Origin: Planctomycetia bacterium
GTDB lineage: Bacteria > Planctomycetota > Planctomycetia > Pirellulales > UBA1268
Assembly (NCBI GenBank): GCA_021414115.1
Contig: JAIOPD010000115.1
Span: 1-64,000, forward strand
DNA: 64,000 nt
Direction: 5' to 3'
Under the pieces are notes generated by a model. That model had not been told where the DNA came from. It was given only the letters and a program-made list of their open reading frames with translations, and made no database searches. Shown piece after piece: positions 20,137 to 64,000 of this stretch. Positions within the stretch are counted from its first letter, which is position 1. Each line of letters begins with the position of its first letter. The translations under genes and the position numbers were made by a program.

Positions 20137-20622
20137 GTGTCGAGCGAGCCGGAAAGCGTGTTTGGCCAGCGGGTCAGCGTCGAGCAGGTGGAGGAGGGCA
20201 ACGACTTCGCCCCCAAGTTTGATTCCAGCGGCCTCATTCCCTGCGTGACGACCGACTTCCATTCGGGCGAGGTGCTGATGGTGGCGGTGATGAACCGCGA
20301 GGCGCTTGCCAGGACGATCGCCACGGGGGAGGCCCACTACTGGAGCCGCAGCCGCCAGCAGCTCTGGCACAAGGGGGCCACCAGCGGCCTCGTGCAGAAG
20401 GTCGCCGAGATGCGGATCGACGACGACCAGGACTGCGTCTGGCTCCGCGTGGAGATCGCCGGCGGCGCCAGCTGTCACGTCGGCTACCGCTCGTGCTTCT
20501 ACCGCAAGGTGCCGGTCGGTGCGGAACGAACCCAGGGCACCACGCTCGAGTTTCTCGAGCACGAGAAGGCCTTCGATCCGAAGGCAGTCTACGGCGACGC
20601 ACCGAACCCGACGCAGCTTTAG
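20137..20622 (+). CDS. hisI: Phosphoribosyl-AMP cyclohydrolase
   Basis: 161 residues from a GTG at 20137 with GCGAGGAGC upstream. It catalyses ring opening of phosphoribosyl-AMP, the third step of histidine synthesis. [10 protein letters not shown], the [14 protein letters not shown] block, the Mg-binding DDDQDC and the zinc-binding [11 protein letters not shown] are all present. The PRA-PH (HisE) domain is not fused. Other his genes are not nearby. Its TAG overlaps the stop of the convergent polymerase gene. Confidence 0.95.
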
Positions 20623-22550
20623 AGCGCATCCGACTTGGGTGCCTCACCGGCTTCGGCTGCAAGCTGCTCGCGGGCGAAGGCGAGCATCTCCTGCAGCGGC
20701 TCGGTCCGATACTCCTCGGGCACCGTTTCGATCACGTCCACGGCCTCCGCAAACCTGCCCGCGTCGATGAGGCAGCCGGCGAGATTGTGCCGCGGCTCGA
20801 GCCGGTCGGGGTAGCGGTCGGCCGCTGCGGCGAACAGAGGAATCGCGTCGTCGAACCGGCCGGCCTCGGCGTAGAGGGCGGCGAGGTTGTTCGTGATGTA
20901 CATCCGGCTGGGATTGACGGCGAAGGCGCGTTCCAGGCAGACGGTCGCCTCTTCACGCCGGCCGAGCCGCATCTCCGCCATGCCCTCCAGGAAGGCGATG
21001 GGTGTGGCCAGCGGGTCGAGCGACTTCCACGGGGTCGCCCCCGCGCGGGCCGCGGCCCGCATCGTCTTCCAGTCGCCCGCCTGCCCCGCCTGCCGCGCGA
21101 TCATGACCTGCCGCTCCTGGTCGAGCGCCGCCTGCGCATAGGTCACACCGAGCGCGAGGGCCGCGGCCACCGGCGGCACGACGAGCCAGCCGGGCAGCGG
21201 CACGGGCCGCATCGAGGCGGGCCGCACCGCGTGCTTTCCGAGTGCGATCACGGCCAGCAGGATCGCCAGATGCACCTGATGGGTGATGCGATCGAGCGGA
21301 AAGTCGACGCAGGAGAAGACGAGGTAGGCCACGAGCGCCATCAGGCAGACGAGCGCGAGCCGCGCCTCGGATGGCGAGCCCGAGCGGAGCACGGCGCGGA
21401 CGGCAAGGAGGGCCGCGACGAAGATCGCCGCGAAGGCCACGAGCCCTGGCAGCCCCTTCTCGGCCGCCACCCAGAGGAAGTCGTTGTGCGGCTGGATCCA
21501 GTTGTCGCTCGAAAGATTCGCAAAGTCGAGGTCGCCGCCGTAGTAGTCGTGGAGCCGGATGGTGAAGTTGCCGGCGCCGACACCCGTGAGTGGATGGTCG
21601 GCGATCATCCGAGCCGTGACGCCCCAGATCATCATGCGTCCGCCGTCGGTCGGGCCGGCTGCCTGATGGGGCCGCGTCACGATCGTCGTCTGGAGCAGGC
21701 GACCGAGCGGCGTGTCGCTGCCGGTCAGCGCTGCCACGCCGCCGATGGCCGCGGCACCGCCGAGAAATGCCGCCGCGAGCGACCGCCGCAGGTTCCGCGA
21801 GACCGCGAGGCGGTCGTGGCAAGCCAGTGCCGTGGCGCCAGCCACGGCCGCGGAGACGAGCACCGCGAGCCATGCCGCCCGCGACTGGAGCATCACGATC
21901 AGCGCCAGGGTGCTGCCGGCGGTTGCGATGGAAAGCCAGCGCCAACCGCCGGCCAGGAGCGCCGTTCCGCCCAGACACCACGGCAGGAGCAGCGCGAGCA
22001 GGCCGGCGTAGAGGTTGACGTTCGACATGCGTCCGGTCACGACCTCCATCGTCCGGCGGCCATGGAGACCGAATCCACAGCGAGTCAGCGTTTCGGAGGT
22101 GCCGATGGCGACGGCCACCGCGGCGGCGAGCACGAGCGTCTGGACGACTCGCTGTCGCCAATCACGGTCGAGCGGCAGGAGCAGGCAGGCCATGCAGAGG
22201 ACGCCGACCGCCGCAAGCGACCGGAAGATGTCGGTCCACCCAGCCGACACGTTGGTCGCGAAGGCGAGCGACGCCGTGGACACGAGAAGCGCGACGGCCG
22301 AGGCCACCACGATGGGCTCGCGAAGCACCGATGTGTCGAGCCGGGAAGCCACTGCGGGCACGAGCAGCGCGAGCGGGAGGAGGACGAGCAGCAATGCCGA
22401 AAGCACGAGCAGCCGCGGCAGTTGCGACACGTCGTACGCAGACGGGTCGATGACCACGTTGAGGCCGACGATCACGACCGCCAGGAATGCCACGGGGACG
22501 ATCGCGATCCAGCGTGCCAGAGCCTCTCGAAACGGGGATGGCGATGTCAT
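20619..22550 (-). CDS. O-antigen ligase/polymerase-like membrane protein fused to TPRs
   Basis: 643 residues. The first 470 hold about 11-12 membrane helices of the Wzy_C/O-antigen ligase fold. The diagnostic loop reads [21 protein letters not shown] with [16 protein letters not shown] after it. Residues from about 485 are tetratricopeptide repeats (for example [20 protein letters not shown]). The protein probably polymerises or attaches a surface polysaccharide on the outer side of the inner membrane, with the TPR part binding a partner. It is the last gene of a leftward group with an epimerase and two glycosyltransferases. The chosen ATG follows the epimerase stop by five bases. Confidence 0.75.
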
Positions 22551-41643: not shown

Positions 41644-41686
41644 CGTCAGGAAGCCCCAAGCGCGAGCGCGGGGTAGACGCGTCGCC
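41644..41686 (+). repeat. Palindromic intergenic repeat, type B
   Basis: Core GCCCCAAGCGCGAGCGCGGG followed by GTAGACGCGTCGCC. A nearly identical copy lies at 62652-62695, and inverted copies at about 32692 and 60396. It starts 8 bases after the lysS stop. Confidence 0.8.
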
Positions 41687-41732
41687 TCGAGACGGTGCCG
41701 GAATCGTTCGCTGGCGGTGGCCTGCGTGGATC

Positions 41733-41863
41733 GGGGTTGCCCGTGCCCTCTCGCCGGACGTTCCCTACGGCCCTCCAGGCCTCCGTTCACTGCGTGTCCG
41801 CCGCGCTTCGCCATCCATGGCTTCGCTTGCTCCCACAGCCCGCTCAAGGGCACGGGCAACCCC
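41733..41863 (+). repeat. 131-base element with 17-base perfect terminal inverted repeats (copy 1)
   Basis: It starts GGGGTTGCCCGTGCCCT and ends AGGGCACGGGCAACCCC, an exact inverted match. Inside are CGGACGTTC and a GCGCTTCGCC word that are shared with the longer copy at 62423-62580. It does not encode a protein. It could be a MITE-like mobile repeat or a large hairpin made as RNA between lysS and lolE. Confidence 0.75.
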
Positions 41864-41975
41864 TGGCGTTATCCGCCGGCTGCCGCATCTTCCGGAAAAC
41901 GGGTCGATTCCGGGGTTTCGGCGGAGTGGGGCGGGCTGCTACCCTTCCCGCCCCCCTCCTGAGACCGCCACGCCG

Positions 41976-62326: not shown

Positions 62327-62422
62327 GGTGCGGACGGTCTTCCAGAGGGGGAACTTCCAGTGGACTTTAGGATAGGTGATCGGGGGTTCGGGGGCGATAT
62401 CGGGTCTTGCGGTACGCGGCTC

Positions 62423-62580
62423 GGGGCTGCCCGTGCCCCGGGAGCCGGACGTTCGCTCCGGGCATCCTGCCCTGCGCTCTCTGCACGCCGGCTGCGCTTC
62501 GCCGACCAATCCGCCTGTGGCGGATCGGTGCCCGGGCTCCGCTGGCCGCCGAGCCCGGCTCGCGGGGCACGGGCAGCCCC
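62423..62580 (+). repeat. 158-base element with 18-base perfect terminal inverted repeats (copy 2)
   Basis: It starts GGGGCTGCCCGTGCCCCG and ends CGGGGCACGGGCAGCCCC, an exact inverted match. It shares CGGACGTTC and TGCGCTTCGCC with copy 1 at 41733-41863, with the same end sequences apart from one base change. Not coding. A type B palindromic repeat lies 70 bases to the right. Confidence 0.75.
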
Positions 62581-62651
62581 TTCGCGGAATCAATGAGATA
62601 TCCGGGGCGCATTGTGGTCGCGCGGGATTGGCTGGCACGCGTCGTCTCCCG

Positions 62652-62695
62652 CCAGGAAGCCCCAAGCGCGAGCGCGGGGTATACGGGTCGCCTCA
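62652..62695 (+). repeat. Palindromic intergenic repeat, type B
   Basis: Core GCCCCAAGCGCGAGCGCGGG followed by GTATACGGGTCGCC, with the same flanks as the copy at 41644-41686. Confidence 0.8.
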
Positions 62696-62700
62696 CGACG

Positions 62701-62846
62701 GCGTCGCCGGCGGCCCGAGCGTGAACGGGCCAGGGATGGCCGTTCACGCGTCAAAACGATCGCAGGACGCGATCATGGCCGCAGGCGACAGCGTCGCCGG
62801 AGGCCCGAGCGTGAACGGGCCAGGGATGGCCGTTCACGCGTCAAAA
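62701..62846. repeat. 56-base direct repeat with 90-base period at the glnA 3' end
   Basis: 62701-62756 and 62791-62846 match at 55 of 56 positions. Each contains the hairpin-forming pair GTGAACGG / CCGTTCAC. The right copy includes the last codons and stop of glnA, so the left copy looks like a duplicated tail of glnA and its downstream hairpin. Confidence 0.85.
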
Positions 62847-64000
62847 TAGAGGCAGAACTCGTACGGGTGCGGCCGTAGCCGCATCGGGTCGATTTCCTTC
62901 TCGCGCTTCCACTTCAGCCAGGTCGTGATCACGTCTTCGGTGAAGACGTCCCCCCTGAGCAGGAAGTCGGAGTCTTTCTCGAGGGCGTCGAGCGCCTCGT
63001 CGAGCGAGGCGGGCGCCTTGGGCACATTGGCCAGCTCCTCCGGCGGCATATCGTAGATGTCGCGGTCGAGCGGCTCGCCGGGGTGGATCTTGTTTTGGAT
63101 GCCGTCGATCGCCGCCAGCAGGATCGCCGAGAACGCCAGGTAGGGGTTGCAGGTCGGATCGGGGCAGCGGAACTCGACTCGCTTCGTCTTCGGGCTCGCC
63201 GAATACATCGGAATCCGGCAGCTGGCCGAGCGGTTGCGCTGCGAGTAGGCGAGATTCACCGGGGCTTCGTAGCCGGGCACGAGCCGCTTGTAGCTGTTGG
63301 TGGTGGGATTCGAGATCGCGAGGATCGCCGGGGCGTGGCGGAGGATGCCGCCGATCGCGTGGATCGCCATCTCGGAGAGGCCCGCGTAGCCGGTGCCGGC
63401 GAAGAGCGGATGGCCGTCCTTCCAGAGCGAGATGTGGGTGTGCATGCCGGAGCCGTTGTCGCCATAGATCGGCTTGGGCATGAACGTGGCCGTCTTACCG
63501 TAGCGGCGGGCGACGTTGCGCACGATGTATTTGTAGAGGCACATCTGGTCGGCCATGCGGACGAGTTCCTGAAACCGCATGTCGATTTCGCACTGGCCCG
63601 CCGTCGCCACCTCGTGATGCTGGGCCTCGACGTCGATCCCGCAGTGGATCATCGTCTGCATCATCTCGTTGCGCACGTCCATCAGTTGGTCGGAGGGAGC
63701 GCAGGGAAAGTAGCCCTCCTTGTGCCGCAGCTTGTAGCCGAGGTTGGGCCCTTCGGCGCGGCCGCGGTTCCACTCCGCCTCGCAGGAATCGAGGTGGAAA
63801 TAGCCCTCGTGGGCGTTCTGGTCGAACCGCACGTCGTCGAACACGAAGAACTCGGCCTCCGGGCCGATGAAGCAGGTGTCGGCGATGCCGGTGCTCTTCA
63901 GATAGTTCACCGCCTTCTTGGCGATGTTCCGTGGATCGCGGGAATAGTCCTCGCGGGTGATCGGATCCTGCACCATGCAGATCATCACGAGCGTCGGAAT
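62834..64000 (-). CDS. glnA: Glutamine synthetase, type I (5' end cut off by the window)
   Basis: 388 residues are visible; the reading frame is open to the right edge, so roughly the first 90 residues lie outside. It joins ammonia and glutamate with ATP. The metal/ATP region EAEFFVFDD, the [14 protein letters not shown] loop and [20 protein letters not shown] are typical of GS type I. The adenylation-site region is absent or altered ([20 protein letters not shown] is present, but no NLYDLP-like box). It ends CLYFDA, with the stop inside a 56-base repeat. Confidence 0.9.

Follow-up and report, generated by a model that had tools for sequence, protein, structure and literature searches.

A foldback repeat with a covarying three-way-junction fold at gene 3' ends in one planctomycete family

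Background

The attC site of integrons is a folded single strand of which the shape is conserved and the sequence is not. ERIC elements, also called IRU, are palindromic, non-autonomous, intergenic repeats of about 127 bp with TA termini and a target duplication, and their transcripts are predicted to form long stem-loops (PMC2229807). RUP of pneumococcus is a MITE derived from IS630, is linked with IS630-Spn1 and lies at TA or CTAG (PMC2229807). REP and BIME sequences are palindromic and dispersed, lie mostly downstream of genes, between unidirectional or convergent genes, and are known in Planctomycetes (PMC3733652).

Two segments of a planctomycete window (the whole stretch of DNA that was analysed, 64,000 nucleotides) were compared with these systems. 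The element is like ERIC in being similarly sized, palindromic, non-autonomous and intergenic, but it has neither TA termini nor a target duplication, its arms are far longer and it belongs to another taxon; it was set apart on these features. It shares with REP and BIME the position at gene 3' ends, whereas REP units are 20-40 bp long with a GTAG or CGTC tag and the element is about 135 bp, untagged and built as a three-way junction, in a genome from which the RAYT (Y1) transposase is absent. The likeness to RUP lies in a larger unit around about half of the own-genome copies, which has IS630-like ends and lies at TA/CTAG; these ends are those of the carrier unit, and the foldback element exists without the carrier in other genomes. 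The conservation of shape and not of sequence is shared with attC, but the element is dispersed singly, forms no cassette arrays and was never seen as a cassette boundary. An attC identity was rejected on the lack of arrays and on the inner ends, where both strands read GTT and then AAC, the opposite order to attC.

Results

The positions and the inverted ends given for the two copies in a preliminary description were confirmed (Table 1). The arms are perfect over 17 bp in copy 1 and over 18 bp in copy 2, where they are part of a longer inverted repeat. Both segments fold much better than shuffled sequence (z = -5.1 to -6.5). The covariance model built from the alignment matched copy 1 at 41721-41875 (118 bits, E 1.4e-25) and copy 2 at 62411-62593 (119.9 bits, E 5.3e-26), and the true edge of copy 1 probably lies about 4 nt further out on each side. 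The placement between codirectional genes also held for both: copy 1 is flanked by lysS and a LolC-like permease gene and copy 2 by glnA and a nitrite-or-sulfite-reductase-like gene, these names being a reading of the proteins. A type B palindrome does lie near each copy, as had been described. The two interiors, said to share words and to differ in length and sequence, do differ, but the differences are largely compensatory base-pair changes plus one hairpin inserted in copy 2.

Table 1. Features of the two window copies and of the neighbouring type B hairpins
Feature	Position in window	Strand	Basis
Copy 1, foldback repeat, 131 bp	41733..41863	+	arms, fold, comparison with recovered copies
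P1 5' arm, copy 1; pairs with 41847-41863	41733..41749	+	fold; compensatory P1 changes across species
P2 hairpin, copy 1; tip region GGCC-CTCCA-GGCC	41758..41792	+	alignment columns, covariation
P3 hairpin, copy 1; tip GCC-ATCCAT-GGC	41793..41838	+	alignment columns, covariation
P1 3' arm, copy 1	41847..41863	+	fold
Copy 2, foldback repeat, 158 bp	62423..62580	+	arms, fold, comparison with recovered copies
P1 5' arm, copy 2; pairs with 62555-62580 over 26 nt at 96%	62423..62448	+	inverted repeat I11
P2 hairpin, copy 2; tip GGGC-ATCCT-GCCC	62449..62483	+	recovered copies, covariation
P3 hairpin, copy 2; extra hairpin inserted at its tip	62484..62554	+	fold, insert comparison
Inserted 30-nt hairpin GACCAATCCGCC..GGCGGATCGGTGCCC at P3 tip, copy 2	62504..62533	+	insert comparison
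P1 3' arm, copy 2	62555..62580	+	inverted repeat
Type B hairpin GGAAGCCCCAAGCGCGAGCGCGGGG, separate repeat, near copy 1	41649..41673	+	palindrome listing
Type B hairpin near copy 2	62655..62679	+	palindrome listing

The number of copies had been put at two, with an absence of further copies named as evidence against a repeat; a genome-wide search with the arm run revealed many more. The arm GGGGYTGCCCGTGCCC occurs at 179 sites in the 4.35-Mb genome (92 forward and 87 reverse) and the reversed-pattern control at 0, so that chance is excluded. The genome holds about 90 copies, a total that is only approximate, copies being taken from stretches around the listed arm sites. Full-length copies were recovered 54 times in the own genome, mostly of 131-134 bp, and 77 times in related genomes, and nearly all copies measure 129-134 bp. 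The sequence next to the arms suggests an element about 4 nt longer at either end, commonly with G[C/T]TC on the left and TC[G/A]C on the right; 86 copies have a TC/TC mismatch at these extended edges, and in 67 a C-G or T-A pair lies beyond it. The proposed test for target-site duplications gave none in 52 own and 76 other copies, the left and right flanks matching no better than mis-paired flanks (3-10 bp). Among the listed places, an incomplete set, neither a transposase-carrying copy bounded by the arms nor an arm pair 0.3-5 kb apart was present.

The fold is a three-way junction of an outer closing stem P1 (about 25-28 bp) and two hairpins, P2 and P3, each with internal loops and a tip that most often reads ATCCT. 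When RNAalifold was run on the raw alignments, the structures were weak or made no sense, at first because orientations were mixed and later probably because stem columns were gapped; the structure was therefore defined by column covariation and tested separately. One row, on the wrong strand in alignment A1, was dropped for A2. The covariance analysis that had been suggested for the interior showed compensatory change in all three stems. The column-pair scan of 122 cores revealed strong covariation, with counts of GC 85, CG 27 and TA 8 for one pair at the P2 tip, CG 71, GC 41 and AT 4 for another, and CG 67 and GC 52 at the P3 tip. In a diverse set of 26 copies, 91.4% of cells are paired under the named structure, and double-change cells numbered 107 compared with 34.9 in shuffled and 10-36 in slid controls. 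For 26 distant copies, drawn largely from genomes in which the exact arm is rare or absent, the figure was 191 compared with 53.5 shuffled and 13-41 slid; this alignment was fitted to the model and leans towards the structure, and the slid controls are the fairer comparison.

In P1, 16 of the 25 outer-stem pairs are altered on both sides in the distant copies. The terminal inverted repeats are swapped in other species and genera for different, still complementary sequences, and the distant outer arms, for example GGGGTTGCCCACACCCCGACG, GGGGTGGCCGGTGCCATCTCG, GGGGGAGCCCGATGCTGTCCC and GGGGTGAGCCCAAGCCGATGAG, are each largely complementary to their own partner. The internal loops are kept, TC/TC of P2 in 119 and 118 of the 122 copies and TNC/TNC of P3 in 118 and 122; on the complementary, purine strand the loops are GA/GA and GNA/GNA and the tip is A(N)GGAT. 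The picture of conserved ends and a variable loop is thus roughly reversed across the family: the stems vary with compensation, and the internal loops and GGA-type tips are constant. The fold itself is probably under selection, because self-correction of a palindrome would erase the conserved loop mismatches. The purine strand is likely the folded one. Non-Watson-Crick cells stayed G.U/G.T on that strand in 96 vs 23 cases, and in 63 vs 23 without one hot column; by column the bias is weak (18 vs 10), and the copies are related rather than independent.

In the family to which the genome belongs (11 genera), 55 of 60 genomes gave a match to the covariance model; none of the 38 examined from the other families of the order did, and in a class-wide draw of 148 genomes only the 2 family members matched. 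Copy number ranges from 2-5 to about 90 per genome, and family genomes without the exact arm can hold tens of copies (52 in G013, 90 in G020 and 73 in G042). Records with the exact arm are nearly all labelled as planctomycete MAGs. The exact 26-mer was absent from IMG/VR and BLAST of plasmid and phage collections gave no match, and spread on mobile replicons was rejected on these results. No Rfam 15 family reached its gathering score at the element, a tRNA being the only match in the window, and relaxed Rfam searches returned chance-level matches only. No description of such a repeat was found in the literature searched.

The position of the copies relative to genes was strongly biased towards 3' ends. 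The 104 placeable copies comprised 52 in convergent and 52 in codirectional gaps, with 0 divergent and 0 intragenic, compared with 39 codirectional, 26 divergent and 8 convergent among the gaps of ≥100 bp that served as background, from 224 kb of the own genome. The convergent enrichment had a Fisher p of 3e-8 and the chance of zero divergent copies was about 1e-20; placement used a simple, rough codon-usage gene caller and 62 of the 104 copies came from other family genomes, but the difference is a large one. Relative to codirectional genes the two orientations were nearly equal in number (31 vs 21).

The individual sites were compared with those of congeners. The lysS-lolC gap contained no element, by arm search or covariance model, in 11 congeners with both genes adjacent, and the glnA-nirA gap is 148 bp in the nearest congener compared with 516 bp here. 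Congeners carry elements elsewhere in the same neighbourhoods, for example just downstream of nirA in three. The repeat family is thus old and the individual window sites are not. As neither a target-site duplication nor a clean within-species empty site was seen, insertion is inferred from comparison between species.

About 30 of the 54 own-genome copies are embedded in a larger repeat unit. Its beginning, TAGAGCGCATCCGAC, is similar to an IS630-type end. The unit consists of a left module, which begins TAGAGCGCATCCGACTTTGGTG and often starts exactly at a TAG stop codon, the core about 53 nt further on, and a right module with type B hairpins. At one locus (L178; G000:C78, about 26-470) the composite has a left end TAGAGCGCATCCGACTTTGGTG and a right end ..GGATGCGGTCTAG, inverted to one another, with CTAG on both sides. 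A similar end, TAGAGCGCGTCTGAAA, lies near an IS630-type transposase gene in a congener (L209). The composite is also present at many contig ends, and the left module recurs at window 20620-20641. Riding on this IS630-like composite probably accounts for part of the copy number; it explains neither the copies outside the unit nor the family-wide fold. Clean empty composites were considered as excision footprints and rejected, only slippage-type remnants such as GGGGCTGCCCC being seen, with no exact boundary. A Y1/RAYT transposase was absent from the own genome (95%-complete) and its presence does not follow copy number in relatives; a RAYT/Y1 mobiliser was rejected on both grounds.

Other hairpins and repeats were observed in and around the element. 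The hairpin inserted at the P3 tip of copy 2 is found at the same tip in one other own copy (L141), a relative of it occupies the P2 tip in L038, a copy from another genome, and two further copies (L036 and L111) have a different P2-tip insert in common; the tips of hairpins seem to be places where other hairpins insert. The type B hairpin, a separate repeat that often adjoins the element, follows the palindrome GGAAGCCC[C/G][A/G]AGCGCGAGCG[A/C]CGGG at window 32608, 32690, 41649, 60315, 60396, 60467 and 62655, often as inverted pairs 60-90 nt apart in the manner of BIMEs. It can be read from its sequence as CCCG-GA-GC-GCGA-GC-GA-CGGG, a tandem G.A design like that of the element with a GNRA-like loop. 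GTAG-type REPs CCGTAGCACAGGTTTTCAACCTGTGCC flank the element in several relatives, sometimes on both sides (L051, L056, L057, L074, L087, L091, L104, L105, L106, L107 and L111). Between glnA and copy 2, window 62696-62861 holds a direct repeat of 76 nt (90 nt apart, 88% identity) with a hairpin GTGAACGGGCCAGGGATGGCCGTTCAC; its similarity to RsmW is weak (E 0.03, well short of the gathering score) and probably due to chance.

Discussion

The explanation that fits best, and one that we consider fairly probable, is that both segments belong to a non-autonomous intergenic repeat of the REP/BIME/ERIC kind, confined to one planctomycete family, of which the folded strand is read for spread and which survives at 3' ends. 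The purine strand would fold as single-stranded DNA when replication or excision exposes it, and perhaps as 3'-UTR RNA too, a reading that the near-even orientation in codirectional gaps does not favour. The tandem G.A loops and GGA-type tips would be read by a putative transposase-like or hairpin-binding protein, and such recognition would both maintain the structure and permit spread. Insertions outside 3' ends would be purged and survivors would remain at 3' ends only, because so stable a foldback is expected to be harmful within a gene or before a start codon. The element may secondarily aid termination or the separation of convergent transcripts. The repeat is new among those of this kind, as a defining feature of each was looked for and was absent: no GTAG/CGTC tag, RAYT, TA termini or target duplication is present. 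Rfam has no match to it either.

The preliminary description had left the choice between a MITE family and a structured RNA. A dispersed repeat family and a structure were both borne out; a strict MITE was not. A classical MITE would be a deletion derivative of a DDE insertion sequence, with a transposase that binds the terminal repeat GGGGYTGCCCGTGCCC and moves copies in trans. The element is short and non-coding, at about 130 bp, has perfect inverted ends, is intergenic and numerous, and about half of the own copies lie within the unit with IS630-like ends. These ends belong to the outer unit, no arm pair was spaced at 0.3-5 kb among the places listed, target-site duplications are missing, and the fixed terminal repeats that a MITE has in common with its autonomous element are not seen, the arms differing between species and staying complementary; we therefore regard this origin as improbable. 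A host element at the 3' end, whether a bidirectional terminator, a stabiliser of the mRNA 3' end or a topological site between convergent genes, is in accordance with the convergent enrichment and the empty divergent gaps, with the conservation of fold and loops across genera and with the presence of the element in nearly all family genomes. The loss of harmful insertions gives the same position bias, as for REPs (PMC3733652). The sites are not conserved in congeners, the copy number is very uneven among genomes and the two window copies have no U-tract terminator form, so that such a role, possible in itself, is unlikely to be the main explanation.

The fold could also be of mechanical origin, a palindrome being corrected during replication by template switching that copies arm into arm; selection on the fold would then play no part. 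Self-correction is known for long foldbacks, and the composites without a core, which hold remnants such as GGGGCTGCCCC, suggest replication instability of the palindrome. Under such correction the TC/TC and TNC/TNC positions should become pairs, yet they are unpaired in 97-100% of copies at the best sites and persist unpaired in other genera. Self-correction may contribute to the stem changes; loop conservation stands strongly against it as the whole story, and we give a mechanical origin very little credence. A more specific proposal, which we hold to be quite doubtful, is that a dedicated protein binds the purine strand as a functional nucleic-acid domain that recurs in the genome. The domain would be a three-way junction that has tandem G.A loops and two hairpins, both GGA-tipped and separated by about 40 nt, and the protein would use its approximately 100 copies at gene 3' ends as a dispersed network for regulation or mobilisation, different from the REP systems known so far. 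The protein could be, for example, one of four CsrA paralogues, acting on RNA, or a single-strand endonuclease, acting on DNA. Four csrA genes were located (G000:C52:41737, C52:56713, C116:11879 and C117:30289). GGA is present in most purine-strand tips, and the commonest loop, AGGAU, is without the A of ANGGA; binding of the element by CsrA is a lead only.

Conclusion

What look like terminal inverted repeats in the REP/BIME/ERIC-like element form the stem that closes a conserved fold; they are not fixed-sequence binding sites, and the arms have been replaced within one bacterial family while the junction and the G.A loops persist. This allows a test of whether repeats of this sort are recognised as single strands in folded form, and it separates structure-read repeats from IS-derived MITEs. 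The covariance model allows the annotation of a repeat, often in tens of copies, in most members of a planctomycete family that is represented here by MAGs alone.
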